Positions 9,007 through 64,000 of a stretch of DNA of 64,000 nucleotides are shown here, one piece after another. The translations under genes were made by a program, and so were the position numbers. The stretch is from Clytia hemisphaerica (Eukaryota; Cnidaria; Hydrozoa; Leptothecata; Clytiidae). The DNA lies in contig CACVBU010000292.1 in NCBI GenBank assembly GCA_902728285.1, positions 3,166,770 to 3,230,769 of the forward strand, read 5' to 3'. Numbering within the stretch: the first letter of the stretch is position 1; the number at the start of each line of letters is the position of its first letter. Under the pieces are notes generated by a model. That model saw only the letters and a program-made list of their open reading frames with translations. It made no database searches and was not told the DNA's origin.

Positions 9007-9210
9007 ATGGCGACATATACTTTCACTTTCGTTTTCTTCGAAGAACGCAATAAAAAGCAAAGTTGGACACTGCACTGGACAGAGTGGCTGAAGTTTCTAA
9101 TAGTTTTTTCTTCGAACTGGATTTGTATTCAAACCATTTCCCGATCAAAATGGATCATGAAAGCATTCTTAAAGGTATTTTTGATCGTTTTTGGAGCTGG
9201 CGACTTTTGA
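9007..9210 (+). promoter_or_regulatory. Candidate upstream ORF overlapping the DUF885 start
   Basis: An ATG in good context (AAGATGGCG) opens a 67-codon frame that ends at 9210. It overlaps the main start at 9150 in another frame. If transcribed, it could reduce initiation at the main start. The encoded peptide resembles nothing I recognise. Transcription start is unknown. Confidence 0.3.
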
Positions 9211-10892
9211 ATGCTTCTGAGTTTGCCACTTCAATTGGTAAACATCTGTACAGTGACAGACTGGATGAAATGAGTTTAAGCTCTTACAAACGCCGTGAAG
9301 ATGAAGCTAGAAGTTTCCTAGATGAAATTAAACTTGTCAGGGCCGATTCTTCAGTAAAATCTTTATCTGAAATCAGTTCATTTAATGCAGAACTTCTTCA
9401 GGCAGACTTGGAACAGTTTGTCCACGGCTTGCAGTTCCAAACTTGTTTGTTTCCGCTGAACATGTTAGAAGGCCCTCACCTTGATTTCCCTAGGCTTCTT
9501 GATTGGATGGAGAAAAAGACACCAAAAAACTTTGAGGATATTATCACACGTTTACGTTTGTTTCCTCAGAGAGTTGATGAATTGCTAAAACTCTTGAACG
9601 AAGGGATCTACAAAGGGATAACAATGCATAAAGTTTCTGTCACAGTTCTTCCGAAAACTTTGACTGACATGAGCTGCCTTACCCCAGAAGAAGCACCGCA
9701 TTTCAAGCCATTTTTGGAGAAGCCAGAAAGCTTTGATACAAACGAGTGGGAAAGTGTTGTTCAAAAAGCAAAAGATGTAATTGAGAAGGTTGTTTTGCCA
9801 CAATACAAACGACTTTCTGACTTCATTGAAACCACTTACATTCATCACAGTAGACCAGAAATTGCAGCTACATCTCTCCCAAATGGAAAAGCTTTCTATG
9901 AAGCATGTTTAAAGTTCCATACAACAACCAACATGTCAGCTCAAGAAATCTTTGACAAAGGGAAAGAAGAAGTTGCAAGAATTACAGCCAAAATGGAAGA
10001 AGTTAAACACTCTGTTGGCTTTGAAGGGAGCCTAAAGGAGTTTCGTAAATACTTGAGAAGTGATCCCAAATTCAAATTCAAGTCAAAACAAGATATTTTG
10101 GATCATTACAATAAAGTTTATGCTGATATTCTTTTAGTCTTGCCAAAATTGTTTGCTAGATTGCCAGAAGCAAAATGCGAAATTGTTCCAGTTCCTGATG
10201 AAGTTGCACCAACCTTTCCAGGTGCTTATTATCTTGCCCCTCCGGAGGATGGCAGTCGTCCAGGAACTTTCTTTATCAACACCCACAATCCAACTAATCG
10301 TAATAAGTACGAAGCTGTCTCTTTAGCTTTACACGAAGCACAACCAGGTCATCATTTACAAGGTTCTTTGACAATGGAATCAGGTGAAATGCTTGCTTTC
10401 CGACGTTTTATGGAAGATCGAAATTATTATGAGCCTCCTGGTCGTTTTGCCATGAATTCCGCCTACGTTGAAGGATGGGGATTGTATTGTGAATATCTTG
10501 GTGAAGAATTAAAGCTTTACGAAGATCCATACAATTTGTTTGGTCGGCTGTCACATGAAATGTTACGTGCTTGTCGTTTGGTAGTAGATCCTGGGATGCA
10601 TGCATTAGGATGGAGTCGACAACAAGCTATCGATTATCTACTTGAAAACACAGCTAGCAGCGAGGAAGATATTACTTCTGAAATCGATCGCTATATAACA
10701 TGGCCAGGTCAAGCGTGTGGCTACAAAATTGGAGAAATCAAAATTAAAGAGCTTAGAGCTCACGCTGAAAAATCACTTGGTGATAAGTTTGATATTGGTA
10801 AATTCCATGATTTGATTGCTTCTATGGGAGGTGTTCCCCTTGATATTCTAGAAGAGCAAATAAATAAGTTTATTGCTGAGTATAAACGATAG
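9150..10892 (+). CDS. DUF885-family predicted metallopeptidase, intronless
   Basis: Single-exon gene of 580 residues. The frame opens further upstream with no ATG. The first ATG (ATCAAAATGG, A at -3 and G at +4) is at 9150 and is chosen as start. The family signature HEAQPGHHLQ (about residue 395) and the downstream YVEGWGLYCE (about 439) supply the expected His, His and Glu zinc ligands of this gluzincin-like family. The length fits the family. DUF885 proteins are abundant in bacteria and patchy in animals; their substrates are mostly unknown, so I infer only a probable Zn-dependent hydrolase. I see no signal peptide or membrane segment, suggesting a cytosolic protein. The absence of introns, unlike neighbouring ERO1, could reflect retroposition or old acquisition from bacteria. 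Confidence 0.92.
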   Translation: MDHESILKGIFDRFWSWRLLNASEFATSIGKHLYSDRLDEMSLSSYKRREDEARSFLDEIKLVRADSSVKSLSEISSFNAELLQADLEQFVHGLQFQTCLFPLNMLEGPHLDFPRLLDWMEKKTPKNFEDIITRLRLFPQRVDELLKLLNEGIYKGITMHKVSVTVLPKTLTDMSCLTPEEAPHFKPFLEKPESFDTNEWESVVQKAKDVIEKVVLPQYKRLSDFIETTYIHHSRPEIAATSLPNGKAFYEACLKFHTTTNMSAQEIFDKGKEEVARITAKMEEVKHSVGFEGSLKEFRKYLRSDPKFKFKSKQDILDHYNKVYADILLVLPKLFARLPEAKCEIVPVPDEVAPTFPGAYYLAPPEDGSRPGTFFINTHNPTNRNKYEAVSLALHEAQPGHHLQGSLTMESGEMLAFRRFMEDRNYYEPPGRFAMNSAYVEGWGLYCEYLGEELKLYEDPYNLFGRLSHEMLRACRLVVDPGMHALGWSRQQAIDYLLENTASSEEDITSEIDRYITWPGQACGYKIGEIKIKELRAHAEKSLGDKFDIGKFHDLIASMGGVPLDILEEQINKFIAEYKR

Positions 10893-26563: not shown

Positions 26564-27700
26564 TCATCTGCAGCTGTATACTTTATCTCCATTTTCGTCT
26601 TTTGAGCTGCGGGCATACTTTAGAAACAGGGAGCTCAATTTTTGGTTAGGCCCCAAAACATTGACCAAATAAGGCGTTATATCCTCCTCCTTCCATCTCG
26701 GGCGTGTTTTGAAGAGCATGGTGAACCTCTCAGCTGGACTGTCCGGTAGATCATGCTCGGAAAAATGCCAAATAACCGGTGGGTGGTTCTTCATATCAAC
26801 TAGAGCCACACCTTTGAGATGCCCAAGGGAGGTAGTCATGCCGTCAGGAACACTTTCTTTCCACGCAGTCATAAACTCGTGAAAATTGAATTTCCCAAGA
26901 GCAGGTCTTAGAATGTATTCTGCATAATAAGTACATACTTGATCCTCGCTTAAACTAAAAACACGTTTCTCTGTATCTGTTTCCACTCCATAAGTTTTCA
27001 AACAATGCTCAAGAACGAATTCAGGGTAGAGCTCATTTAACATCTCGACAGTCTCTGGTAAAGGAATTTCTTTCCAGCTCCAACACTTCTCTTCCATAAG
27101 AGCTAAAATCTGACTGAAGGCTTTCTCCTGGTAATTGATCTCCAATAGTAACCATTGATTATCGACGTAAATAGCACCTAATTGCTTCAATCCTTCCATA
27201 AGTTCTTCCTTACTGGCTTGCACAGCGTCTAACAAATCATCTGTAGTCAGTTTTTGTGACCCCTCTAGAGACTCGCCAGAAAAACAATGCTCTTTGAGGA
27301 TAAACTTCAATCTCCCAAGACGTGCACGAGATAGTTTGACCTCGAAATATGAATTAAAACTACTATAGACTGGAAGGTCCACCAAATGTTTATCACATTG
27401 AAAATTGTGCGTTTTGGGTGTTTGAATGTGAGGTAACAGAAGCAAGGCGTTGGAGGTGTCGGCAGCTTTGAGATCAAATGTTTTGTTTTGTGTGCATAAG
27501 ACAGCTTCATCTTCACCTTCGCCACGAATGGTGAGAATGTTACCTTCTTTCACCAGATTTGCCAATTCATCTGTAAGCTCCAACAGTTTGTATTCTTCTT
27601 TCATCCACGTATCAGAGTAATGTAAACATTGGATTGGTCCTTTAGATTGTTGCACACCTGCTACTGTAGCTAGCTCGTTTATCTTCTCCATTCTCTGCAT
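26564..27700 (-). CDS. DSCC1: DSCC1, sister chromatid cohesion protein DCC1
   Basis: A single-exon ORF of 378 residues, close to the vertebrate length of about 390. DCC1 joins CTF8 and CTF18 in an alternative RFC clamp loader. That complex loads PCNA during replication, links to DNA polymerase epsilon and supports sister-chromatid cohesion. Recognisable stretches include the N-terminal LLELTDELANLVKEG, SNALLLLP, and the helical segment TTDDLLDAVQASKEELMEGL preceding the C-terminal winged-helix region. The C-terminus contains the conserved-looking LKGVALVD and RPRWKEEDI. The first Met (27700) or the fourth residue could be the start. It is intronless, unlike ERO1, and lies 872 bp downstream of BLOC1S5 on the same strand. 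No lesion is seen. Confidence 0.93.
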   Translation of the reverse strand: MQRMEKINELATVAGVQQSKGPIQCLHYSDTWMKEEYKLLELTDELANLVKEGNILTIRGEGEDEAVLCTQNKTFDLKAADTSNALLLLPHIQTPKTHNFQCDKHLVDLPVYSSFNSYFEVKLSRARLGRLKFILKEHCFSGESLEGSQKLTTDDLLDAVQASKEELMEGLKQLGAIYVDNQWLLLEINYQEKAFSQILALMEEKCWSWKEIPLPETVEMLNELYPEFVLEHCLKTYGVETDTEKRVFSLSEDQVCTYYAEYILRPALGKFNFHEFMTAWKESVPDGMTTSLGHLKGVALVDMKNHPPVIWHFSEHDLPDSPAERFTMLFKTRPRWKEEDITPYLVNVLGPNQKLSSLFLKYARSSKDENGDKVYSCR

Positions 27701-28572
27701 GGTTGTTCGTTAAATTTAATTTTGTTATTTTTTAAACGTAAGTTAGATGCTGAAAAAGGTGAAAGTGAATTATTAGTCTCATAAAATACACCTACGGCCT
27801 CTTCTAATACAGTTAGATGATTACGTAATGCGCCTAAGATGAAAAAGCGAGAGAGAGAGTAAAGAAAGAAGTCTACCTGCTTATCAAATGTTACTTTAGG
27901 TATAAACTTAATTCTTTTTTTTAAATCATAAAAAAAGAAATAAGTTTATACCTAAACTAATCAAAATGTGGAGGTTTGAGATGTTTTTAATTTTAGATAA
28001 AACCCTGGTAAGCTTGAATCCAATTCACCTCCTTGTATGTCTAAACGTTACATACAATAATTCATAGGAGCATAAGACAATGATTCGTGTTTTATAATAA
28101 ACACTCTCAGAACAGATTGTAAAAGCTGAACCATAGTGTAATCAAAATTGGATCATATAGTTATAAAAAAAATACCAAATTTAACTTCATAATTCTATTT
28201 CACAGTATCTAAGTAATATAAAGATCTAAATAGTATAAAAATCGTCTGAAAGAACTAAAAGTTCTTTGAAATTTTCTGAAAGAAATTAGACTCAAAGTAA
28301 TTGATTGAAACAACATTGTTCTGCTTAGCAGAGATAGGGAAAAAAGTCTTTTTTCAATTAGCAATTCTGACTTTCCAATTATTGAATGTTGAAAAAAATA
28401 ATTGAAAACAATTAGCTTTATAGACCGGTTAGAAAAGTTAAAAAGCCAAAACTATCTATCATCTTGATGTATCATTTCCCTCTCAATAAAAATGAGAGAG
28501 ACAATTCACCTCAATTTTCCTCTTTCCTACACAAAATTAACATCACTGACCCCAAATATAATCAAAAGTAGG
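27701..28572. other. Intergenic DSCC1-BLOC1S5; one palindrome
   Basis: AT-rich. A 60-bp inverted repeat (TTAGGTATAAACTTA ... TAAGTTTATACCTAA) spans 27896-27957. Otherwise nothing was recognised; it should contain the DSCC1 promoter. Confidence 0.5.
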
Positions 28573-29016
28573 TTAGCTTTTGACTTCTAATTGAGAATGC
28601 AACTGAGCCATTTGTTGTTCATGTTTTTGTAAAACATCTGATTGTGCTTTACTCATCTCGACCATAAATTGTTCCCATTGTTGTTCCCTCTGTGCTTTAT
28701 GTTCAAGACGAACTTTCTCTAAATCAGGGCTTCGGTCATCAAGAATATCAAGCCCAGAAGAAGCTGCTTTTACAACTTCACCGTGAATTATCTGAGTCTT
28801 TTCATTTAGTAATTGAACACATTCGGGTACTAAGCCTTTGACCTTTTCTATAGATTGGTTTATCTCCCAAAACACTTTTGATGAATCGCGACTTTTCTTT
28901 GTTTCCAGCTCTTTGACCAGAAATTTTGATTCTGCGTTGAGGACAGCTCTGTGGTTCAACAACCGTGAACATACATTAAACATATCTTTACATATCATGT
29001 CAACTTCATCTGCCAT
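28573..29016 (-). CDS. BLOC1S5: BLOC1S5 (Muted), BLOC-1 subunit 5
   Basis: A single-exon ORF of 147 residues; human BLOC1S5 has 187, the difference mainly at the termini. The N-terminal block CSRLLNHRAVLNAESKFLVK matches the family's SRLLDHRPV...ETRYFVKEFE region. A predicted coiled coil follows, then QREQQWEQFMVEM, corresponding to the family's QWDNFM block, and a helical C-terminus. BLOC-1 is a cytosolic complex for biogenesis of lysosome-related organelles and endosomal sorting. The start at 29016 is the only ATG before the conserved block with a sensible length. No stop or frameshift is seen. Confidence 0.88.
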   Translation of the reverse strand: MADEVDMICKDMFNVCSRLLNHRAVLNAESKFLVKELETKKSRDSSKVFWEINQSIEKVKGLVPECVQLLNEKTQIIHGEVVKAASSGLDILDDRSPDLEKVRLEHKAQREQQWEQFMVEMSKAQSDVLQKHEQQMAQLHSQLEVKS

Positions 29017-29238
29017 TTTGAACTTTTAATTTTGTAATTATCTTATATTATCTAAGTTCTTGGTAGCTAAAAGATAAAAAGAGAATATAATTGATTTCAA
29101 TTATATAAGGGAGTTAAATTTTGACAGCTTTTTTGAAGAGAAGTGCTAGAATTGAAGCAACAATTGAAATAACTTTTGAATGTTGACTGTTGAGGTGGTC
29201 AGTAATTCCTAAGTTCCTGAATCAACGCTTTTTTTCAA

Positions 29239-46255: not shown

Positions 46256-47632
46256 CTATTTATTAGAGAAAAGTGCTGATGTAAAATCATTTTCCTCAAC
46301 TAAATCTTTTTTGTATCGCTTTTCAAAAGTGGTTGAAGTTGACCAGTGTGCTCTTTTTAGAATTTCTTTCATTGGAACACCTTGAGCATAAGCTTTTGAA
46401 GTTGAAGCCGACCTAGTAGAATGTCCCTTAAAGGTTGAAGTATCTATCCCTGCCAAAAATAAGGTTTTTAACACCCATCCAGAGACGGTAGAAGAAACTA
46501 CTGGTTTATGGGGGTTCACATAGCTCAATAACAATTGACCTTTCCCCTCTCTCCAAGTTTTTGTTCTTTCTAAATACAAATCAATGTTTTTACAAACACA
46601 CAGATTTTCATCGTCCTTAAAAGGAAAATATTCAATTGGAGGTCTGACTTTTCCTGGTCTGTCAACCTTAGTTGGTTTGCCAAATGAAAAAATATATTTT
46701 GAGTGATGCTTGACCAAAAATGCTGTGTCAAGGAAAGTTATTTCATGCGCTCTGGCTGTTGAAGTTAACGAAAGGAGCATTGTTAATTTGAAGGTTAATA
46801 ATTTGTCACTGGCTGTTTTTGAATCAATAGAGGTTAAATATCTAACTACTACATCTACATCCCAAATAAAATTGTATTTCGGTTGAGGAAACCTTTCATT
46901 ATGAACACCCTTGAGAAGAGAAGAAACCAAGGGATGTTTTCCAACCGGTAAACCATCAATAGGTTGATGGTAAGCAGATATTGCGGACCTGTAACCAGCA
47001 ATTGTACTATGTTCAAGGCCACTCTGAAAAGAATCAGTTAAGAACTCTATGATGAAATTTAGAGGGCATCGAAAGGGATCAACTTGTTTTGTACCACACC
47101 AGCTATCCCACTTACCCCAGGCCGATTTGTAATGAGATCGTGTCCCTGGTCTTCTTGAGGCAGTGATGAGCTCTGCAGCTTTCTCCGATAATCCCTCTGC
47201 TTGGATTCTCTCCCTGAAACTGTCCAAGCCACCAGTTGGAGGCTTTGGTTCTGTATTAGAGGGTGTATTATGTTTTGAGGGTTCATCAAAAGGTCCCATT
47301 GGTTTGGGATAAGAATAGGATTTTGAATGGACAATTGAAGAAGTTGTGGATACCAGCTTTGAGTCTGCCAGGCTGGTGTTATTAACAAGATTGTTGCCTT
47401 TTCGGCTGACACCTTCCAAAGAACCTTCCCTATTAGACAAAATGGTGGGAACGCATACCCCCTTATGTGAGTCCACTGAGTCTGAAATGCATCCTGTCCC
47501 TTGCTGTAGGGATCTATTTTCCAAGAATAATAAAGAGGTACTTGGTGGGTTAGTCTTGAGGCAAAAAGGTCTGTACACGGTGTCCCCCTTGCTTTGCAAA
47601 GTTCTCGAAATATCTGAGTTTTTAGTTTCCAT
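46256..47632 (-). CDS. DIRS tyrosine recombinase
   Basis: An ORF of 458 codons. The first 135 or so overlap the RNase H frame and may not be translated as shown. The recombinase proper starts around LDSFRERIQAEGLSEKAAEL. A core-binding region (RSHYKSAWGKWDSWC, FLTDSFQSG, TIAGYRSAISAYH) precedes the catalytic domain. Active-site residues are visible: Arg in TARAHEITFLD, His-x-x-Arg in KGHSTRSAST, the HW pair in RAHWSTSTTF, and the nucleophile Tyr in EKRYKKD. The fold is that of phage and DIRS integrases. It is intact in this copy. Confidence 0.92.
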   Translation of the reverse strand: METKNSDISRTLQSKGDTVYRPFCLKTNPPSTSLLFLENRSLQQGTGCISDSVDSHKGVCVPTILSNREGSLEGVSRKGNNLVNNTSLADSKLVSTTSSIVHSKSYSYPKPMGPFDEPSKHNTPSNTEPKPPTGGLDSFRERIQAEGLSEKAAELITASRRPGTRSHYKSAWGKWDSWCGTKQVDPFRCPLNFIIEFLTDSFQSGLEHSTIAGYRSAISAYHQPIDGLPVGKHPLVSSLLKGVHNERFPQPKYNFIWDVDVVVRYLTSIDSKTASDKLLTFKLTMLLSLTSTARAHEITFLDTAFLVKHHSKYIFSFGKPTKVDRPGKVRPPIEYFPFKDDENLCVCKNIDLYLERTKTWREGKGQLLLSYVNPHKPVVSSTVSGWVLKTLFLAGIDTSTFKGHSTRSASTSKAYAQGVPMKEILKRAHWSTSTTFEKRYKKDLVEENDFTSALFSNK

Positions 47633-49331
47633 TCGCTTGAGTCTTTCACTGATCGTGATTGGCGGTCTGCTTCCACATTCAGGCGCCCTGGAAGATACTC
47701 TACAGTAATCGTGATCTGATGCTCTAAAAGGTATTTCCAGATCTCCTTGCTTAGGTCTGTTAACAGTTTGCTGTGGGTTCCTCCCATTTTCTTCAAATAT
47801 GTAAGGGCTGCTATATTGTCCATCTGAATGTGAATGGACAATGTTTGTGGAAAAAGCCTGTGGAATGCTAGTATTGCTATTGTTTTGCAGCTTTCAACTC
47901 TAGTACATTGATATGAAGATCCTGTTCTGGTGCTGACCATTGACCCCCTGTTTCCTTCCCCTTGCAGTATGCACCCCATCCTTCCTTGGATGCATCTGAA
48001 GATATCAAAAGTTGAGGAGGAGGTAAAACTAGAGAACGTCCGTTTGTCAATTGAAGGTTTTGACACCACCAGTTCAGTTCTTCCTTCACCTCTTCTGATA
48101 AGGAAATCATTGAGTCGAAATTTTTGTGTCTCGACAGCTCTTTTATCTGTTGGCTTTGAATAGCCCTGTACTGAAGAGGTGCAGGGAGAACTGCTACTGC
48201 TGCTGAGGACAAGAGGCCAAGAAGTTTTGTGAGATCCCTTATCGATACCTGAGAAGATTCCAGCATATTCTGACACTGGGAAATTATCTTTTCCATTCTC
48301 TCTGGTGGCAGGCTCAATTTTAAATTCAACGAGTCCACTTCCACCCCCAAAAATTGAATCTGATGAACTGGTTCTAGAACTGACTTCTTCATGTTGATTC
48401 TGAATCCCAGATGTTGAAGTAAAAACATCAAAGTGTCCCGGGCCATTCTTATCTCTTGAAGGGAAGACGCCAGGATTAAAATGTCGTCCAAGTAAACTAT
48501 TAGGCGGACATTCAACCTTCTCAATAGGGCTATAGGAACTTTCATCACTTTTGTAAAGACTCTGGGTGCTGGAGCAAGGCCGAAGCACAGGCAAAGAAAT
48601 TGGTAAATTTTTTGTTTCCACTTGAATCTCACATACTTCCTGGATTCTTGACTTATCGGGATTGAGAAATAGGCGTCCGAAAGGTCTATCTTGACCATGA
48701 AGTCCCCCTTTTTTAGAAGTTCTTTGAGTAAGGACAAGCTTTCCATCTTGAAATGAAGGTAAGGAATGTGTTTGTTTAGGGACTTCAGATTTATCACTGG
48801 TCTGTTCCCTCCATCCTTTTTGGAAACCAGGAACAGAGAACTTAGAAATTGATTTTGGTTTTGAAAATGAATTGTTTCTATAGCATTCTTTTCCAACATT
48901 TGCTCTATCTCCTGATCCACTAGTGATATCTCCTCTTTTGACATGTTTGGAGATTTGGGAATTTGATTTTGCCTTGGAGTTGAAACAAAGGGTATTTGAT
49001 ATCCTTGAACTGTTCTCAGTATCTCTGGATCTTGTGTTAGTTTTTCCCAATTTTTCAAATAAAACTTCGTTCGACCTGCCTTTGGCAGGTTTTTGACTAG
49101 TTTCTGAGGAAACAGTGATTTTACTAGAGGGTGCACACAAGAAAGGTCTTGTTCTTCCTGGACCTGTCTTAGTGGAGGAATGGGACTCGGTTTTGGAGGT
49201 ACAAAACAAGTTGATATTTTTTGGTTTAAGATAGGAAATTTTCTTACCTCTGAATGAGAAGCCTGGTCTTGAATGCCCTCTTCCACGGCTTGCTGGAAAA
49301 GAGCCTCCTGGAAAGGGCCTTTTTGAACCAA
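47059..49331 (-). CDS. DIRS reverse transcriptase-RNase H (one frame break)
   Basis: RT occupies the frame 49331-47877. Motifs include LFLVSKKDGGNRPVINL, MVKIDLSDAYFSIPI, CFGLAPAPRVFTK and the catalytic IVYLDDILIL. RNase H begins ISSDASKEGWGAYCKG and VLELKAAK, then hits a stop. It continues one frame over with AILAFHRLFP, IQMDNIAALTYLKKMGG, the DIRS-typical PGRLNVEADRQSR and TDLFASRLTHQVPLYYSW, to about 47059. Loss of one A in the run GCAAAACA near 47880 explains the shift. It is otherwise complete; a programmed shift is possible but less likely. Confidence 0.9.
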
Positions 49332-50094
49332 TTGCAGGGAATCTGGGTCTAGTTGACGTAGATGATGATGCTTTCACTCCAGTAAATACAGATTCTGACT
49401 TTTTGATAGCTTTGGTGTCTTTAATCAATTTGGTTTCGAATTCTTCTCCAAATAAATGCTTGTTATCAGCCTTGTTAAGCTCTTGACTTTGGTTCTTTAA
49501 GATATCTTTTACTCTTGATGAGGAGTCAATCAGTGTTGACAAAATATTCTCTCTTCTGTGATAGTTGCATGAGTTTTGGATCTGAGACAGCAAAAGTATT
49601 GTTTGGTCAAGAAGATGCGAGAGGTGGACGGTTGATTCATCCTCAGGATTTCGGCTTTTTTCCTGGTCAACTGCATCCCAAATTTTCAAAAGTGGTCCAA
49701 AGACCAAAAACATTTTATCTTGAATTGTCTTTAATGTCTTTTCTGATTTAAGAGTTATTGATTTGTTATTATTTGACAGTATCGTGCGGATGTAGCTGTC
49801 AAGATCAGGTACCTGTTTTAGATTTGTTGGTACAGGATTTTCCCAAACAATGCTGTCTTTGATATCTTTATCAGCTACATGCAGTTTGATATATTTGTGG
49901 ATGTATTCTAAAAGATTGTTTGGGAGTTCCCATTTCTCTTCAGCCGCCTCTGGATCGAGTTCAAATCTGTCAGTAGGGGCTGGAGGTTGTTCGTTGATGG
50001 GCTGGACCTCATCAGCATGTTCTTCTACAGGTTCCTGAGGAGCTGCAGGGACATTATCTCCATTACCATTTCTAGGAAAGAGATTTTGAAACAT
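49050..50094 (-). CDS. DIRS Gag-like protein
   Basis: The frame opens at a GTG at 50115; the first ATG (MFQNLFPRNG) is at 50094. An acidic Pro/Glu-rich N-terminus is followed by a helical region (LLEYIHKYIKLHVADKDIK, TILLLSQIQNSC). A basic Arg/Gly segment (ASRGRGHSRPGFSFRGKK) near residue 290 is presumably the nucleic-acid-binding part. The C-terminal limit is inferred: the same frame stays open without a stop across the RT gene to 47059, giving a 1018-codon frame whose middle part is not a plausible protein. Confidence 0.75.
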
Positions 50095-50430
50095 TATTTT
50101 ACCCTTTATAATCACTGAATGAAATAAAGGATTTTTGATTTTTTTTTTTTTTAAACTTTATCGAGTAAAATAATGCCTTCAATATGTTGGGGCAACACTA
50201 CCCTTCATAGTCACTGAATGTAATGAAGGTAGTTAATCTGCTAAGCTTAGATGATTTTGGATTCATAAAGGAATGTATGGAATTTTAAGTATTCTACTTA
50301 CTCTGCGTCCATCTTTATCAGCGCGAATTGGCGAAAGAGGCTTTGAGCAATGACTTGCAGACTGAAGGCGAGAAAAGGGCGTAATCCAGTATTGGATCGG
50401 GCGGAGATTTTATGAAATGAAATTTGGAGG

Positions 50431-53191: not shown

Positions 53192-56100
53192 CTAGTCGTC
53201 TTCCATAAGCAAGTCTTCTTTCCGCAGAATAGCCGCATCTAATTGCTCCAAGAATGAAGGTTCGGATAATATCTGTTGTAAGTGATTGATTAATAAGTTT
53301 ATTTGTTCCGCACCGTTGATCAAAATTAAGAATATTTGCATCCAGAGTTGTTCGTCCCAGTCCCTAAAATTTGAATGGAACATAAATAATGTCGATATTT
53401 TCAATAAAAACATCTGTAAAGACCAGGTAAATTGTTTTACACTTTTATGAGAGGCTGGGCCGGCTAGGCGGATCAACTTAATGTTTTGTATTAAATCTGT
53501 CTATTGACCAATTTGCTAAATTAGATTGCATAAATCAAATATTCCTCTGCCTCCAACCCAATCTTGAACACCCCTACCTCAATAATCTCGCAGTCCCTTT
53601 CAAAATAATTAATAGCAATGGGGAACTTTTGGTCACTTTCTCCCAGAAAGAAAAGGATCCCCCAAGAAACCCTCAATTACAAATAAAAGAGTGGTTTAAA
53701 TTAAGTCTGATTAAAAATAAAATGTTCATGGTTTTTTTTTGGATTGCCCCAGAGAAAATCTAGAAAGCGAACCTTGGTGGGATGTTGCACATTTTGGTGA
53801 TTTGTTTTTGATTATCATAATAAGTATTGAGAGGATTTTGAAAAATCAGTTCGTGGATGATACCAGCTGCTGCATAGTAATCGACCTGCAAAATGAAAAT
53901 AGAAGTTGCTTCCAAGTGTGAATTAGAGAGAGATTTGAACAGTTGGAAGTATTTTTAGAGGGTCCCCCCTGGGACCGAGAATTAGTTCAAATTATAGAAA
54001 GATTCGAATAAAAGAAGCTCGAATAAGCCAGGGTTCACTGTAATATCGTGCATAATCAAGGCAGGAAGTGAAAAGTTTCACCCTCCAAAAGGCTGTAACA
54101 AACAATTGCCAATCTTATTTTGGCATGGCCAGGAGAGAGATTCCTGAATCCCTATTTCCCGAGTTGGTGTGCAATCTTTGGAGGTTTGAACCATTCAGGA
54201 AGCATTGCATCCACATCTTACCTCGGGACCCCAGTATTCTCCATTCTTCATGGAAGGACATTCATAGGAATCTTTATGACTTCTTCCGTACAAATGACTA
54301 TCAGATGGCAAAAGTGCCAAGTCGACGCTATTCTTGAAACTAGTCATCGTTAAACAATGCGTTGATAGCGCACCATCTTTCAAATTCTCCCTAAAAAGTA
54401 ACATGTAAAGTTTGAAAATCTGCTCGTTTGAAAAAGAAGAAAACGTACTCTTAGGTACATAGCAAAAACAGAAGGGGAGGAGAGGATGCGAATCCAGCTT
54501 TTAATAAACGGAGAGGGGCAAAAATGCCGGGAGATGCAAGTTGTGCTCCTTAATACCCCCAAAATATGGTTCGGGGGTTGAAAGGATCGAAAATTTGACA
54601 GACAAGGGTCGGCGTATTAGGCACCTGAGAGTACTTTAATACAATGCGAAAACTAAGAAAGCACACTGAGATAAAATGTCTTTAACGATACTTTACTACC
54701 TTGAACCTTCCACAACAATCTTTTCATGAGATCCGCAAAGAAGGCATTCGAAAAAGGTTTAAATGAAATTTATCGTCTCACCTGTCACCAAGGAGGAATT
54801 TAGTTGGTCGTAAATCACAATGTACAATCTTTAGTTGATGTAGCGTCTGAATGGTTTTTAGGATTTCGTAGACATAAAGTAACGCAAGTGGTTCATCAAT
54901 TTGTTGTGAGTGTCGTTTGTAAAGTTTGATCAGATCCTGGGAAATAGAAGAAACGCAAAGGGTCAGGATTGGTTAAACACTCACCTTTCATCAAAGAAAA
55001 TGGAAAAGACATCGGCAAAACAACAACCTCATGTTAACCTCATCACTGCAATGTGATTGAATTTGTAATAAAGTTTACTGACAATCGTGAGCTAGTGATT
55101 ACCCCTCCTATTTCAAATCTGACTACCCCTCCCCCTCCCCCTGCAAAGGAAACCACAAGTCTTTATGATTCCTTCCCAGCCTGGCTGAAAAGCGAAGCCA
55201 TCCTCGGTATCGCTTCTCGGCCTAATGGCTAAGATCAAGTGTAGTATCTGTTCTTATCAGTTTAATATCTGATACGCCTTCCATAGTGTTGGCTCATATA
55301 TTAATCTGATTTTTGTCTTCGGGTCAAGGGAGCGAGGTTTACCTCACCATGACCACGGGTTGCCTCGGCGGTGCACTACAGTAGAGCGCAGCCCATACTT
55401 TCTTTGATAAAAAATTGAATTCACTACTTAAAGCTTCTGGCTTCCAGAAAATGTTCATGAAACAATGTTCATGATAACATAGGTTTGGAGGATATTTTCA
55501 GGAGTCGAACCGGACTCGATAATTATACCCCTCCCCTCTCACCGGTTGAACCCCCATGACAAAACTGTAGATTTACCCACCGGACACCTGCTACTCCTGG
55601 TCCCCTCTAATCCCATGTAATTTCTTTGGAAGAGCCCAAAAGAACAAGAAATACATACCATGAGCGTCCCAGTGTTATAGAAATCGGATTCGTAGCATGC
55701 AGCGTTCGAATACATGTTCACGTGATTGATACGAACAAAGTTTTGATGCTACAAAAAAGAAGAAAAAATTTTCCTCATTATTTCCATGTTAGAAATTTTA
55801 TCTATCATCAGAAATAGCAAGACTCCTATTTATAATACACAAAGAACTGTTTCGAAGTTAACAGAGTTGTGTATCTTATCATTAATATGATTTCAGTATA
55901 ATAATATAAATAAATCTTGATCAGGTTGGAAATCCAAGATCTCATGTTCGAGGAGAATTACTCCAAAATGTTTCCTTAAGACATCTTTCATAGGAATATA
56001 AGAAGATTTCGATGGTTAATTAGTAATCAAAACGTTACAGTACCGTGTTACAGTACTGTATTTCAGTTTTTTTGTCCGAGGTTTTGCACTCGTTTCAAAA

Positions 56101-59100
56101 TTTGAAATATCTTTAATATTTTGATAGCGTTAATTTCTTAGATACAATTTCGATAGATAAAAAGTCTATCTACAATCAGTGCCATAACATATTGGCACTT
56201 TTCGCTAATTTACCATTTTTCGAAAATTGAAGTTCGAGCGAGAATGTCAATTTCGGGCCCTCAACTTGATTTCAACGATTATTTCGATCTGGGAGGGATT
56301 TATTGGTTTCTAGGCTATATTTCAAGTCCTACTGGACCATTTTTGAACTTTTGAATCCTCACATCCTAAGGTCCTAAGTCTTAAGTCTAGCGTTAAAACT
56401 CAGAGTTAAAACTCTACCCTTCGAACCTACTTTAGAGCACTTGCAAATCGATTGTGGTTTCAAAACACCCCGGTGGGTTTCCTTTTTGTGCCAAGTTTTT
56501 CGTCACTGATTGTAGACATCAAGTTAATTTTTATAAGCCTTTTACGATTATAATATACGCCTTTTTGTGATTTTCCAGTTTTTATCTTAGATGTGAATAT
56601 TGTTACTGAGGGTTAATGGGATTTTGTTATATTCAGTTACCTCCACAAGGGCAGCATTCGCCATTCCCAATCGCTTGTGTATGGTTGAAGTAATGTAAAA
56701 GTCCCATAGATGTGCGTTACTATGCGCAACTGATTGATCAACCACCTGAAAGAAAAAAGTTGAATGTCCTTCTTAAAATCCCCTGATCGCAATGCTAACA
56801 ATAGTGTGGCGAACAATGCTGAAACCCCTCCCCCTAAAAAAAGCCGAAGAAAAGAATACTTTCAAGTAGATTGATGTCCATTACCATAGACCTTTGGCAA
56901 CATTATGCCACAGCAATGCCTATTCGTGTCACAATAGTCCTAAAAATAGTATCAAAACTTTAGAAATCACTGATAGCGAACAATGTAAGAGCCATTCACA
57001 TACCTTTAAGACAAGAGACTTGTTATTTTCGGTGTATCTTGCTTTATAGATACTCATGCCACTCACTCCACGTTTGAGATGTTTGTTGATTTGTATGTGT
57101 CGAGGCCCTACAAAAACAAGTTCAAATCAAATATTAAAAGCAAGTTATTCAAAGCTAAAACTATATAGAGTTGCCTCTATCTAATTAGATTATCAAGGGA
57201 CTTTTAGAAATTTGAAACATTTTGAACAGTTTCGAATTTTAAAGAGTAATACACTACTCCCTAGCGAGGATCAATGTTTTAGCTCAAATTACAGAAATTA
57301 TCGAATTAAAGGCTCGAATTAGAGAGACTTGGATGAAATAAAAACAACTCGCCTGAGGTCTTCTTACAAACAAGTATTGTAAAATAATTCTAAAAGCATG
57401 GAAAAACGACTTACCTAAACAGATATCGGTGCGCCCATTCAAGTGCGATAGAGGTCCATTAATATGAAGAAAACTATTGTTTGTTGTGATTTCATGGGAG
57501 ATACTTTCCACGAAATTGTTCCTTGTTTGTTGGTTGAAAGGGTCACATGCTAACGATCTGTTCTCTGATTGGTCAGCAACTTTGTCTGAATCTTTTCGCG
57601 ATCTGAAAATATAAGATGTAGGTTAGAATTTAATATATAATATTGTCGAACGTGCTAACCGCACTTGCTCAACTTCAGTATCTTTTAAATTACTCGTAGG
57701 CCCAATTGTAAACATCAACAGAAAATTTTTGACATGAAATAACTTATTTCTAAATAGACCCTAAAATGGAAATTTATTCACCAAAGGAGCAAATGTGCAA
57801 AATTTCGATCAGATCAGACCATTTTCAAAGTGTCCAGCCTACCCAAAGTTTTTAGCCTCGTTTTGGCGAAAAACTCGTGACCATGCCCCTAAAAATCTTA
57901 ATTTTAAAAGAATGAAAAAACACTCCAAGATATTCACCCAAGGAACAAGTGTGCAAAATTTCAGCTGAATCCGACCATTTTTGAATTCTCCAGCCTAACC
58001 CAAAGTTTGAGGTGAAAGACAGAAGGGCATTTACAGATTCTAGCTCAACTGAAGTTGAGAATATGGTAAAGTTCGAACTAGCAATTGTTCGCCCAAAAAC
58101 AACAGCCACATAAAATAAAAACTACTCTCGGGTATCTAATAGCCGGTAAAGGAATAGATAGCCATGCCTGTGCCAGACCCAACGACTATTGGCATTTGCC
58201 GTATAAAGCAAACGAAGAGAGGGTATACCAAGTTAACATATATGTAAGATACATTGTAGCATATACGCGAGTAACGAGTAACTAAATATTCCATCTTTTT
58301 TAGGTAATCGCTAGGTACAATGATTGCCTATTAAATGCTTATTGAATATACCTATTATCAAGGCTCGTCGGCAGTATGGTCAAGGCTGCTAGGGCCTGAA
58401 ACCAGGTGTTTAAGATTCAAATTCCCCTGCTCTTTCTAATTTGAGTCTGCTAAATGACGTGCCCTACGTTCCCACGTGCCCTCATCAATTTCCTGTTAAT
58501 ATTTCAGTTCATAGATAGCCAAGGCAGCTGGTCGTGGATCCCATAAAAACAATTGAAAGACTGTCTATGGCCTAGATTACTGGGCTATCGATGAGTTTCA
58601 AGCCGAAGGAAGCAAGAAAAAGCCAAGTTTTAAAACTTGCACCACATTTCGGATGTCAAATTAAATCTAGCACTTTCTTGGTAGGGGGCAAACCTTTAGA
58701 ATCTGTAGCTTCTTTTGTAGTCAGTTTTTAAGCCATAAAAACTTTAACCACTGGCCTCCTCTTAAAAAGTATTTAAATCCTATCTACTTTCGAACCAAAA
58801 TACAAACAGATCCTAAAGGTTGGTCCCTACTATAAATGTTACTTCCGATGGTTTGTATAAACACTACGGGGTCAGCCCAACTTCATGTAGGAATTAAGTG
58901 GCTTCAAATTATACACAGGAGACTCAACTCTAGCCTTTAGCTATAAATTATATCTATCAGACACTCTCACCTTTCACTTTCACCACTGCACTCTTGAATA
59001 GTACTCAAATTGACTGATTCTTGTTGTCGCGTCGTCGTCTCGTTGAAAGCGCTGATGTTCGCACCGAATGTTACGTGACCGATAAACGTACGGGCGGAAG

Positions 59101-62100
59101 GCGTTGAAACAGGGCGGCTTAGGTGAGAAGAGATTGGAGCTTGCTTGTGAGACATATCCAGCCCAAAATCTGTAGCATCAGCTTAAATAAACAAGAGGAT
59201 TTAAAGTTTAACAAGCTGTTAAAGAAGAGATAAAACTTTTGATCCTGTTGCATGACGTTTTCAATTTTGATAATTTTGATTCTATTGTTTCTTATTAGCA
59301 GTCCCAAAATGAGAAATAATGTGTGCCAAACCTTTAGTTTGTGAACCAATCTTGGTTTCGCTGAACATGTCGACTCCTAGAAGAAAAAAGAAAGAAATAA
59401 AATTAAAGTTACTGGTTAAGTTTAAGAACTACATTTTATAAAAGTATTTTTCTCGAAAATCCAGAAAAACATTTTTCCAAGATCACCACTAGGAATAACT
59501 TAGAAATCTAAGCTAGATTGATTTAGTCTGATGTTTAGTTGTGGCAGTATTCCAAGGTAAACTTCAAAAACTGTAAATATAGAAATATCTTTACTGTACC
59601 GAAAACGCCGTATTACCATAAGCCGTGTGTTTGTAGTTTTGTGAAAACGGGCTTAGTTAACTAGGCTAAACTGAGAATATAGGTTGGATACCAACACTCG
59701 CACTTACTTTCTTTTTGTGCTGGTTTGGAAGCATTGTAAATTGTAAACCCTGAAAAAAAAACAATAGCAAAAATCTCAAAATCAGCCGATTTAACGTGAT
59801 CAGTTCAGAAAATCAGCTAAGTGATAATTGCGCCCTCCGAAAATTTATGAAGGATAAATTATCATGTATTTTCTATATTCTTCCTTGTAGTGTAGTGCTG
59901 GAAGATTGATAATAAGTCCAAAAAAGGATCCAAATTAATTACCTGAGTTTTGTTGTGATTTAGAGATTATTTCCTCGTCTTGAAAGATTTGAAAAGCTAG
60001 AAAAGTTGATATGCATACAATCAGTACCGTACGATACCCTATATTTAAGGACCCTATATTTTTTAGAACTGTCCTTGGACGTCCTTATATTCAAGGACCT
60101 GATTTTCATTTAATCCAATAGATTGGAAAATCGAACAACACCGCGACCTAGTGAGAAGAGATATCTGTCCCTATTTATAGGGACGTCCTTAAATATAGGG
60201 ATTCGCGCCGTACTGACAATGAGATATATTGAAAACTACCAAACTTTATTTATAAGCAAACTACACTACATTGAAAAAAAGTTTTTATTACCTGAAGGAG
60301 GTTTTTCGTCAGCTTTGTCTTCAAATATCGGAAAACCTAGATGACGAGGAAAAATAAAACAAAATGTTTGTCGAAAAGTTACTTGTATGCATTTTCATTC
60401 ATTCCTTTCTAAAGAAGTTTCAAACATAATGGACAAGTCCACAGTCAACTGAAGTAAGTGAGAAAACGTTATCGTACAAATGTGGTAGATCGATAAAGGT
60501 ATCAAAGGAAGTTGAAATTACCAGAGTTCTTCGAAATAACATTAGTTTCATCCTTGAATATTTCGAAACCTAGGGGAAAATACAATGCAATATATGTGCA
60601 ATATCTTTATGATAAGGAACAAAGTAGATGAACAAAGCTAGGTTTCTACTACATCAGAGTCAAAATGTTTACAGAACATATTGTGCACAAAAATTCCCAA
60701 TTGTAGATTAGCAAGGTCCAATCGTATTTGGCTATTTTTGGGTCCCAAATCGCCCAAATTACGTTATCAAAAGTCTCGGTTGATTTTTTCATTAAAGTTT
60801 GAAAAGGAAGGGTTTACCTTCTTTTTGGTTAAAGTCTTTCAAGGATTGCGCTGGGTTGTTAAACATATCTGAAAATATGAAGAAATAATAATTTGAAGAA
60901 ACTTAGTCACTTTCTTTGTAAATGATAACAGACAAATAAGTAGCAAGCATTGTCTTCATCAAAGATGGACATAAATAGTCTGAAATATTAGCTTTCACAC
61001 AACTGGAAATCCAGCACTGTGAGAAAAAACTCCGAAAATAGCTACATATACATAATGTTACACTGACCGTCATTCATCGATTCGTTTTGGTTGTTTTGAT
61101 CATCGTTGAAGATTCCAAATCCATGGGATGATTTTTGTGATAGTTTTTGAGATGGCTCGTCTTGAAACACCGAAAACCCTGCGCAAAAAGAAACAGAACA
61201 AAGATAAAAAGTCATTAAAGATGTAGGTACTCGATAAAATTACTGATGTGACACAAAAATGTCTATTACTTTAAAGGGGAAAACTTAGTCGGGTAAAACT
61301 TTTCGTCAGGTAAAATTGAAGTCGAGAAAAACTTCATCACTTTGTAAAAATATTTGTTACAACTCCCTTGAAGTCGACAAGAAGGGTTTTTTGCTTGACA
61401 CTTGCGTAAAGATTTCGCCACTTTTCCCCAACCAATTTTTCCCAACTAAAAAACAGCGTTCATGGCTTGGCCGTACAAAACCAAGCAAAAACAAAACATA
61501 GAAATGAACTGTTTGTAACGGAGGAGAGCTTGACTATTTCAAACAAAATACCTTGCGCTGGTTTTGTAGAAATCTTTTGACTTGGCTCATCTTCAAAGAT
61601 TGAAAATCCTGAAAAAATAATAACAGATGCCGTAAAAATTATAAAGCTGTACTAGAAAAGAGGAGAGAGCCTAAAAGCACAAAACATTTGCTTTAATGCA
61701 TTTTCTCCGGGTGACGTAAATTATCAAGTCCTTTGTTATATACCTTGCAAAGTTTTAGCTGAAAATTTTCCAGTCGGTTCTTGGAAGATGGAAAAGCCAT
61801 CTGAGATTCAAACATCTTGGTATATTTTCGTAAATCGTACAATTGAGAATTAAAACTCAAACTATTTTGACACTTTAGAAAGCCCAACTGCAAGGGAAAA
61901 TAAAATTTGACACCTTTGAAACACACCGCCCGGCCTCATTCGATCCTTGCCTCCCTTAATCTGGTAATAGAGGGGCGAGGAAAGAAATTGCTAAAGGAAA
62001 AAGTCAAACAAACGTTCAAATAATGTAAAGTTTGTCTGTACCTTGGGAAGAATGAATCTTTTGGCTCGGTTCGTCTTGAAAAATTGGGAAGGCTGCAATG

Positions 62101-64000
62101 AAAATCAAAACTGATCAAAATGAAAAGAAAGAAAATTCCTCAAATTGAATTAACTGGTTTCAAGATGCAACTAGAGGGCTGATGCATTTTTTATCAAGAT
62201 AGCATATGTAACTAATTATGATTGATTGATACTTGATCTCTCGCAACGGCAGATTCAAGACAATAGAGCAAGTACATCAGAAACTTGCGAATGCAACGCT
62301 CGTTAAAAGACAATAATTACAATTACAAGTCTCTTCCTTTGACAAGTTTGACATAGTCTAAAACCGCTGTCTACCCATAGTGTGCAAGGGGGTTCCAGGT
62401 CCCACCTGAAAATTCAGGTCCCACCTTATCCTAAAATTCCCACCTTCAGCCCAGACTCCCAGATCCCAGCTAAAAACAAAAAAAATATACTAATTTGAGG
62501 AACAAAACAAAACTTCTTTACCATAATATGAAGATGCAATATATTACATATGTTTAACTTTCCATTTGCCTATGACCTACATTAGGGGTAGAACTGGGTA
62601 GAAACCAATCAAGTAGTCAGACGGCTTAGAAGTAAGTGTGAGTCGTTAGATATAAGTTTGGCATGAAATTATGGCTAATCCTCAAATAAGAAGTTTTGGG
62701 GAAAATTTGTCCCGATAACTACAATATTAGTATAAATAAGTGAGGATTCGCCTACAACCATAACTGCAGGGAGGGAGGGAGGTAAAATATCTCATCCTGT
62801 CAGCTTTCAGTTAGAGTGTCGACTTGAACAGGGAGATGTGATGGCCATTTTGAACATGACGTCACATGGCTATTAGCAAAGTAGACTCAGTTGGCGGAGG
62901 GCACTTTTCAAACAAAAGTTAAACCGCAATTTAACCTATGTTAAATCCAAAATATATTAATATGTCTATTATATACATTTATGAAATATATAAAAAAAAT
63001 ATATCATAAGTCATAAAATCTGAAAATAAGAAACTTTACTTTAACTTTTTCCAAAACACCCAAAGTCCCACCTAAAGAAATTAACTCCCACCTTAACTTG
63101 TTTCTCCCACCTAAAACCTGGAAAACCCCAAATCCCACCTGAAAATTTTCGACCCAAATCAGCAAAACCCCCCCCCCACTATTCTGGGGGGGGGGGGGTG
63201 TGCACACTATGCTACCCGAAGGTAGGGGGTGCCACTCCTTTCCCTGATTTTCTCTACTTACCCTTAATCCGTCTCTTCAATTGCTGAGCATCAAGCAGAG
63301 AGGCATCAAGTACTATTTTGAGAATCTTTGGTATGACCCGGCTGGGGATCGAACCCACAACCCATAAAAATATCAAGGACTTAAATCCTATTTGATAGAA
63401 ATGTACCTTGTGATGGTTTGTCAGTTGGTTCGTCTTGGAATATTGGAAAAGCTATAAGTAAATTATAATAAAAATACAATATAAAGATAAGGAGATAAAA
63501 TATTGGAATATAAGGTCAAAGATCTCAATATGGGTTGCGTACATTTACAATTATATCTTGGACGAAGACTTCAACTTCAGAGTTTCAGCATTAAGGAAGA
63601 TTTCACTATATCAAAGAAAGGAAACTAATAAAAGAAGCTTAATAAAGAAGCTTAAAGAAGAAATTCTGAAAACATAGATCCAAAAATTTTCTGGCGTGTA
63701 AGAAGAAACCCAAGAGTATCGCTTCAATTGTAAATAAATAAAGAATATTCTCTTAATTGTTAGGGCTTGAAAACACAAGAAGTTTTTTTCACGTTGGTGC
63801 AATACAACATGCTCTATCCCACCAACACATGAAAAAAAGAAAAGAGAAATGGGGTGGGGACAAGAGAAAGCCGTACCTTGCGAGGGTTTTTCAGTTGGTT
63901 CGTCTTGGAATATTGGAAAACCTAGAAGGAAATGACAATGAAAATCGGTAAATCAGGGTAAATAAGAGAAGAGTGAGCAAAATATTAGAATTTTTCAAGG
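53192..64000 (-). CDS. BUB1B: BUBR1/MadBub-type spindle checkpoint pseudokinase with ABBA array (5' end outside)
   Basis: Exons, 5' to 3': 63921-63877, 63451-63407, 62092-62042, 61800-61744, 61608-61552, 61178-61068, 60868-60818, 60569-60522, 60336-60292, 59996-59943, 59749-59708, 59376-59332, 59169-58971, 57602-57415, 57107-57004, 56745-56641, 55748-55659, 54936-54782, 54390-54222, 53885-53773, 53363-53192. All borders are AG/GT and phases agree, giving 647 residues. The first twelve form the ABBA repeat array. The kinase fold follows: Gly loop KRGVSGMSIYKA, Lys in LVLK, WDFYI, catalytic loop HCDLRPTKF (Asp kept, Asn replaced by Lys), DFG position TSFKNS (Asp and Gly lost), VDYYAAAGIIHEL, DWDEQLWMQIF. 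The layout matches BUB1/BUBR1; the lost residues make it BUBR1-like. BUBR1 with MAD2 and BUB3 inhibits Cdc20-APC/C at kinetochores. The TPR and KEN parts must lie beyond 64000. Confidence 0.93.
55209..55395 (+). ncRNA. U2: U2 spliceosomal snRNA
   Basis: The 5' half is almost identical to U2 of other animals: ATCGCTTCTCGGCC (stem I), the branch-point pairing GTGTAGTATCTG, stem IIa TTATCAGTTTAATATCTGAT, and an Sm site GATTTTTG. Stem III is GAGGTTTACCTC. The 3' stem-loop closes with GGGTTGC/GCAGCCC around a GTGCACTAC loop, giving a length of about 187 nt, normal for U2. It lies antisense in the BUBR1 intron between exons at 54936 and 55659. I did not identify a PSE promoter. The intact stems argue for a functional copy rather than a pseudogene, though the 3' half is divergent. 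Confidence 0.92.
55840..56630. other. BUBR1 intron, repeat-like, no gene
   Basis: AT-rich intron text. CTACAATCAGTG near 56170 and CACTGATTGTAG near 56503 are inverted, hinting at a MITE of about 350 bp with poorly defined ends. Confidence 0.4.
57776..58012. repeat. Two diverged direct repeats in a BUBR1 intron
   Basis: The text around GTGCAAAATTTC...GACCATTTT...CCAGCCTA.CCCAAAGTTT occurs at about 57790-57855 and 57950-58008, a local duplication with about 160-bp period. Confidence 0.6.
58121..58146. repeat. Lone MITE terminus (ACTCTCGGGTA)
   Basis: ACTCTCGGGTATCTAATAGCCGG matches the terminus of the MITE at 18912-19198. No partner terminus was found nearby. Confidence 0.5.
58147..58970. 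other. BUBR1 intron, no feature
   Basis: Nothing recognised; no exon in phase and no RNA gene seen. Confidence 0.4.
60022..60218. mobile_element. Palindromic MITE (CCCTATATTTAAGGAC arms)
   Basis: CAGTACCGTACGATACCC and the inverted GGGATTCGCGCCGTACTG bound arms that contain CCTATATTTAAGGACG. It lies in the intron between ABBA exons 59996 and 60292. Confidence 0.75.
62375..63217. mobile_element. CATAGTGTGCA element with TCCCACCT repeats
   Basis: Left CATAGTGTGCAAGGGGG and right GGGGTGTGCACACTATG are inverted. Near both ends the octamer TCCCACCT recurs (about 62400-62455 and 63065-63140). It occupies the 1.3-kb intron between ABBA exons 62092 and 63407. I see no coding sequence. Confidence 0.65.
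63255..63365 (-). repeat. Truncated tRNA-derived SINE fragment
   Basis: On the minus strand, GGGTTCGATCCCCAGC is a good Pol III B box. It is followed by GGGTCATACCAAAGATTC and a body with CTTGATGCTCAGCA, a layout familiar from invertebrate tRNA-derived SINEs. No A box lies at the right distance, so it is 5'-truncated. Confidence 0.55.

Follow-up and report, generated by a model that had tools for sequence, protein, structure and literature searches.

How a hydrozoan checkpoint gene came to encode, in a run of very small exons, many copies of a motif that occurs once at the corresponding place of human BUBR1, and what these copies may do, is the question raised by this locus of Clytia hemisphaerica. 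The window (the whole stretch of 64,000 nucleotides that was analysed, found at C207:3166770-3230769 of its own assembly of 417 Mb in 951 contigs) holds only part of the gene, and 40 kb of upstream sequence were added from the same assembly, with positions past base 64000 given as window-extended; statements cited by PMC number refer to the accessible part of each paper. In human BUBR1 the ABBA peptides are ITVFDE (residue 272), FTPYVE (residue 340) and FSIFDE (residue 528), the last of which binds Cdc20 more strongly than the other two, is required for the recruitment of Cdc20 to kinetochores by BUBR1 and is nearly dispensable for the checkpoint (PMC5179498). The answer that we regard as very probable is that, in a BUBR1-like MadBub gene, the exon of the third ABBA motif (ABBA3) gave rise by duplication to 14 consecutive exons, the units of which would form a flexible tether with many sites for Cdc20, acting through rebinding.

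The initial annotation of the window placed eleven short exons on the minus strand between 59708 and 63921, and all of them were recovered at the same positions, with AG/GT borders and phase 1-1. They are part of a run of 14 consecutive small exons on that strand, 12 in the window and two just past base 64000, with AG/GT borders and frame intact in 14/14. The exons are as follows, each supported by AG/GT borders, phase and the unit profile, except where another basis is given:

window-extended 64316-64266, minus strand: canonical array unit upstream of the window (from the window's own assembly)
window-extended 64100-64044, minus strand: canonical array unit upstream of the window (from the window's own assembly)
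63877..63921, minus strand: array exon, unit GFPIFQDEPTEKPSQ, phase 1-1
63407..63451, minus strand: array exon, unit AFPIFQDEPTDKPSQ, phase 1-1
62042..62092, minus strand: array exon, unit AFPIFQDEPSQKIHSSQ, phase 1-1
61744..61800, minus strand: array exon, unit DGFSIFQEPTGKFSAKTLQ, phase 1-1
61552..61608, minus strand: array exon, unit GFSIFEDEPSQKISTKPAQ, phase 1-1
61068..61178, minus strand: array exon, two units FSVFQDE and FGIFNDD, phase 1-1
60818..60868, minus strand: array exon, decayed unit DDMFNN, phase 1-1 (borders and phase; missed by the unit profile)
60522..60569, minus strand: array exon, unit GFEIFKDETNVISKNS, phase 1-1
60292..60336, minus strand: array exon, unit GFPIFEDKADEKPPS, phase 1-1
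59943..59996, minus strand: array exon, unit AFQIFQDEEIISKSQQNS, phase 1-1
59708..59749, minus strand: array exon, decayed unit GFTIYNASKPAQKE (FTIYNA) without the acidic residue, phase 1-1 (borders and phase)
59332..59376, minus strand: twelfth 1-1 exon, degenerate unit VDMFSE, absent from the initial annotation (borders and phase)

The array thus comprises 15 ABBA-type units in 14 exons, of which 12 match the consensus Fx[ILV][FHY]x[DE] and three are decayed, the whole protein having 14 such matches. The ten cores counted at first all match the consensus, but they are not distributed one per exon, since they lie in nine exons and that at 61178-61068 holds two; likewise, the linkers, described as being of about 8-13 residues, measure 9-13 (15-19 residues from core to core), with the exception of one step of 35 residues across a decayed unit. 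Extension of the locus beyond 64000, for which the initial annotation had asked, brought the two further canonical units. A raw consensus match at 60884 (FFIFSD) is not a unit, as it spans an intron/exon border.

A strict exon-like pattern (an AG, a phase-1 frame, a core near the start and a stretch open to a phase-1 GT) occurs nine times in the 4350 bp array segment, while of 2000 dinucleotide shuffles 1871 contained none, 123 one and six two. On the minus strand of the whole window it occurs ten times (the tenth, at 23348, being unrelated) against at most four in 60 shuffles, and on the plus strand once. A profile of the ten units, run against the six frames of the window, returned those ten at 23.8-33.4 bits and the next best match at 9.9 bits. 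Assignment of the units to the ABBA class, proposed from the outset, is supported by the consensus and also by Pfam, where the 217-residue in-window array, searched alone, exceeds the cut-off of one family only, Cyclin_N2, the APC/C-binding region of cyclin A (26.5 bits, cut-off 24, E 1.1e-5); DUF1764 matches the same stretch under its own cut-off. No match to any family was obtained with eight controls (seven shuffles and one reversal of the array). The match is, nevertheless, to be taken as supporting and not decisive, because it falls below the cut-off when the array is presented inside longer proteins (15.1 and 20.1 bits) and for two sub-stretches of the array (15.4 and 19.9 bits). Searched alone, the array gave a single unrelated match in the PDB (E 0.16) and one in NCBIfam, far under its cut-off (E 0.84).

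The motif residues, which had been supposed to be constrained, are held between units while synonymous sites are saturated. Across the 12 canonical units, motif positions 1, 3, 4 and 6 have pS 1.27 and pN 0.04 (uncorrected differences per site), while the free positions 2 and 5 have pS 0.56 and pN 0.43; restricted to the ten in-window units, the values are 1.14 and 0.05 at motif positions and 0.56 and 0.43 at free positions. Such a test is partly circular, because the units were picked by motif, and a motif-independent check is provided by an alignment of the 12 in-window 1-1 exons that uses nothing but their starts: variability is then lowest in the columns of F, F, D, I and E (1.21 bits for both Phe, 1.42 for Asp, 1.58 each for Ile and the following Glu), against 2.45-2.58 bits at the free positions.

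Growth of the array through exon duplication, as originally envisaged, is borne out by the intron phases, which are 1-1 in 14/14 array exons and, outside the array, in only one of 17 internal exons (P about 6e-8). The first two in-window exons resemble each other closely (88% over 73 bases), and no flanking intron sequence is shared between units in a comparison of all flanks except that upstream of exon 1; because the exons are similar while no intron flanks are shared, the duplications would be old, or the exon copies would since have been evened out. An apparent similarity between the flanks of in-window exons 4 and 5 was discarded, as these exons are 135 bases apart and the same stretch had been counted twice. 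The expectation that units can be skipped without a frameshift also holds, in that no junction stop codon arises in any of the 78 ordered joins that in-window exons 1-13 allow, and the donor sites of the array vary, with three to six of six matches to GTAAGT.

The gene in which the array is embedded extends beyond the window. With exon borders set by hand from AG/GT, phase, sequence and homology, it consists of 33 exons, which would be spliced into one mRNA, and encodes 1478 residues in one open frame, which begins at an ATG (window-extended 70477) and has its only stop at the end, at 53192. The order of its parts, from the N-terminus, is: KEN1 box WELSKENVQPLKSGR at residue 14, aligning with human BUBR1; TPR; D-box-like RKVL (204); ABBA1, FQIYGDE (251); REN (281); ABBA2, FEIFKEE (307), the two ABBA motifs being present with their spacer; and the Bub3-binding region YCRDVINMGTREMSFEEIKAQ, which aligns with human BUBR1 up to residue 429 and is presumably the GLEBS region. 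Next come a 986-base repeat exon and one in which SLVGNETLGAT occurs twice; the 14 array exons follow, and after them LSTIQE (1102) and, last, the kinase domain. REN occupies the position of KEN2, in a segment (window-extended 67850-67648) that has no Trp. The placement of the array around KEN2, as given in the initial annotation, has to be corrected, as the array sits at the position of ABBA3 (residue 528), upstream of which the KEN2 cassette forms a separate element. The 986-base exon (window-extended 66029-65044, minus strand) carries six LDxTxxFG-type repeats, 3/6 with a full FG or F ending; this in-exon repeat, like TxQLxELDxTxxFGR six times over between the Bub3-binding region and the array, matches no recognised motif. 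Downstream of the array the exons are:

58971..59181, minus strand: exon with LSTIQE, a match to LxxIxE (which we take to be the B56-binding form) at a KARD-like position (motif match)
57415..57602, minus strand: exon, CDII-like extension before the kinase domain (aligned with BUB1)
57004..57107, minus strand: kinase exon, N-lobe, conserved Lys (LVLK) (BUB1 alignments)
56641..56745, minus strand: kinase exon (BUB1 alignments)
55659..55748, minus strand: kinase exon (BUB1 alignments)
54782..54936, minus strand: kinase exon, HCDLRPTKF catalytic loop (BUB1 alignments)
54222..54390, minus strand: kinase exon, SFK replacing DFG/DLG (BUB1 alignments)
53773..53885, minus strand: kinase exon (BUB1 alignments)
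53192..53363, minus strand: last exon with stop codon (complete frame)

A U2 snRNA gene (55209-55401, plus strand, 153.9 bits) lies in an intron of this checkpoint gene, on the opposite strand.

Judged by its sequence, the gene is BUBR1-like (MadBub), in agreement with the type first assigned to it, and its complete frame leads from KEN1 to a BUB1-family kinase domain. Residues 1-790 match Mad3_BUB1_I (PF08311; 5.3e-31, 107.5 bits, cut-off 31.4), and residues 1-409 find human BUBR1 as best PDB match (6.1e-35) among 11 sequences, the first five of which are BUB1 beta, followed by Mad3 and BUB1. The C-terminal half matches Pkinase (5.7e-13), and the best eight of the 60 PDB sequences listed (829 matched) are BUB1 or BUB1 beta. 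In the kinase domain the Lys of LVLK is retained, while the catalytic-loop Lys and Asn and the DFG/DLG Asp of active BUB1 are missing; a pseudokinase is predicted because the loop reads HCDLRPTKF in place of HxDxKPDNF (HADIKPDNF/HGDIKPDNF) and SFK stands for DFG/DLG.

Genome-wide, PF08311 exceeds its cut-off at this locus only, and a candidate second MadBub gene on contig C93 was rejected, having 20 bits (sub-cut-off), one stop and a tblastn match of just 13 residues. No separate BUB1-type kinase was found with the kinase region or with the BUB1 kinase 6jkk in exon-wise genome searches, which are weak: the 6jkk search listed 26 places, the three examined being other kinases by eye, and the exons of the MadBub gene itself went unlisted. 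BUB1-type kinase activity may, then, be missing or be carried by an undetected gene. Of two protein searches for orthologues one returned only unrelated kinases and the other nothing, among proteins of about 359-1141 residues as against the 1478 residues of the product. In independent MadBub duplications one copy loses KEN and the other the kinase (Tromer 2016, PMC5204127); here, unlike in such split copies, KEN1 and a degenerate kinase share one gene. A rearranged partial copy of the locus, 91-98% identical, is found at C99:4041-10378, with exons 5-8 present twice and a break inside exon 9, joined to the last exon, and without the array and most of the kinase; it may be a haplotype, a deletion allele or an assembly fault.

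Elsewhere in the window, a single-exon DSCC1 gene (26564-27709, minus strand) has a frame identical to EukProt protein TCONS_00022755 over all 378 residues, save a 52-residue insertion in the record, TCONS numbers being those given to Clytia transcripts (PMC9525680); its next relatives are from Hydra and other cnidarians at lower identity. There are also a Muted/BLOC1S5-like reading frame (28573-29025, minus strand), a DUF885 reading frame (9054-10892, plus strand), DUF885 being described as bacterial in Pfam, and a retroelement (46256-50157, minus strand) in which reverse transcriptase is accompanied by a weak match of the integrase type, presumably of the kind using a tyrosine recombinase.

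Cdc20 and Cdh1 had both been named as partners, and the proteins encoded in the same genome speak for the former and not for the latter. Cdc20 (C735; human CDC20 3.5e-110) keeps R262, Y279 and I280 of human CDC20. A second Cdc20-like gene (C294:937089-939885; 1.7e-84) has R, H and I in the pocket, His replacing Tyr279, and Cdh1 (C67; pieces also on C340, FZR1 6.8e-100) has, by eye, A, D and L, the human FZR1 positions being S, E and Q (by eye, from printed alignments); the exons of Cdc20 and Cdh1 were joined by eye, and the C67 piece is incomplete. These positions are those of the pocket mutants R262S and the printed pair Y179E/I280Q (PMC5179498), the Tyr adjoining I280 in the CDC20 sequence being 279 as against the printed 179. 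Because the pocket residues are kept in Cdc20 and not in Cdh1, and because human Cdh1 does not recognise the ABBA motif according to the accessible text of PMC5717348, the expected partner would be Cdc20 and not Cdh1.

In the mechanism that we propose, duplication of the exon that encodes ABBA3 (residue 528 in human BUBR1, the motif with the kinetochore-recruiting role) would have yielded the 14 phase 1-1 exons, and the 15 units (12 canonical) would constitute a flexible tether offering many binding sites to the WD40 pocket of Cdc20. The high local concentration of motifs would allow rebinding and, in this way, a longer residence of Cdc20, whether at kinetochores or close to the mitotic checkpoint complex; at the place of ABBA3, the array would most simply raise Cdc20 capture. 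The contour length per unit of 15-19 residues is about 5-7 nm, close to the width of a WD40 propeller; because spacing and width are so similar, neighbouring sites would probably not all be filled, and rebinding would be the likelier gain. That the array tunes checkpoint strength, as suggested at first, is offered as a hypothesis, because human ABBA528 matters little for the checkpoint itself (PMC5179498).

What the captured Cdc20 would be used for admits a different reading, to be entertained with some reserve, in which the array serves silencing or anaphase, either by holding Cdc20 at kinetochores for dephosphorylation or by competing with ABBA1 and ABBA2 inside the checkpoint complex. Loss of human ABBA3 left the checkpoint unweakened, and the motif may act in silencing (Tromer 2016, PMC5204127); in C. 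elegans, the ABBA motif of Bub1 recruits Cdc20 for dephosphorylation by PP1 (PMC5717348); and the LxxIxE phosphatase site follows directly after the array of Clytia. Nothing in these data, however, separates silencing from checkpoint activation. With the cyclin A APC/C-binding region as the Pfam family closest to it, the array would also agree with degron-like sites, which, like the ABBA segment of cyclin A, would time the destruction of the protein itself via APC/C-Cdc20, but this is improbable for an array that occupies the recruiter position in a known inhibitor, one with KEN1, ABBA1 and ABBA2 besides.

Passive accumulation of units, most of them weakly functional or skipped and with one or two that matter, would account for the three decayed units and for the varied donors; it is rather unlikely in the light of motif positions held against saturated synonymous sites and of exon borders and frame intact throughout the array. 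Finally, as the consensus is short and Cdc20 binding is a prediction, the repeat might be a different short linear motif, with another partner, that fits the loose ABBA consensus by chance. We regard this as very improbable, given the gene family, the position, the independent profile match, the retained Cdc20 pocket and the likeness to human FSIFDE, which lies at 521-540 of the full-length PDB sequence of BUBR1 and is the closest human peptide to the array units.

The preferred reading of a duplicated ABBA3 exon forming a Cdc20-binding tether can be set against known systems. Human BUBR1 has the order A1, KEN2, A2, GLEBS, A3, D-box 2, KARD and kinase (PMC8066494), and shares with the Clytia protein the KEN1 text WELSKENVQPL, TPR, ABBA1 and ABBA2, the Bub3-binding region, ABBA3 between that region and the B56 site, and a kinase fold with degenerate catalysis; it differs in having a single ABBA3 motif as against 15 units, whereas Clytia has REN without a nearby Trp for the second KEN and an extra LDxTxxFG[RK]-type repeat. 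The cyclin A N-terminal APC/C-binding region is similar in its ABBA-type segment and Cyclin_N2 match, but belongs to a substrate with a single region, and not to an array in a checkpoint inhibitor. KNL1/Spc105 MELT arrays are alike in presenting a short kinetochore docking motif in many copies, strong and decayed, and differ in motif and partner (Bub3-Bub1); MELT copy number sets checkpoint strength and responsiveness, an effect shown there and only supposed here (PMC7292645). The initial annotation knew of no described case of this architecture, which is too strong and partly wrong, as arrays of repeated ABBA motifs are encoded by genes of this family in Physcomitrella, basidiomycetes and stramenopiles, although these arrays are non-animal and in MAD paralogues (PMC5204127). 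No ABBA array in an animal, nor one made from duplicated micro-exons, was found in the literature searched, mostly non-subscription and exclusive of the supplement of Tromer 2016.

In conclusion, the feature is real and motif-conserved, and the initial reading of it, an ABBA array carried by a BUBR1-type gene, is correct; it is, as far as the literature searched shows, the first ABBA array in an animal and the first from phase-matched duplicated micro-exons. Speculatively, the array might be a copy-number dial on the Cdc20-catching side, a counterpart to MELT/KNL1, which would help an egg of very large size, in which kinetochores are few for the volume, to achieve a strong checkpoint. Such a dial could be adjusted by the skipping of exons in different cells and may make up for the standard KEN2 that the protein has lost. 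In Clytia embryos mitosis is lengthened 3.5-fold in nocodazole (from 12 to 44 min) and shortened again by an Mps1 inhibitor, a strong delay that comes, as the authors remark, despite a low kinetochore-to-volume ratio (PMC7290841). A link between this delay and the array is put forward as a hypothesis. Sea urchins and mussels also arrest. Gene knockdown works in Clytia (PMC9525680), and, for checkpoint strength in large embryos, the copy number of a BUBR1 motif becomes a testable cause.
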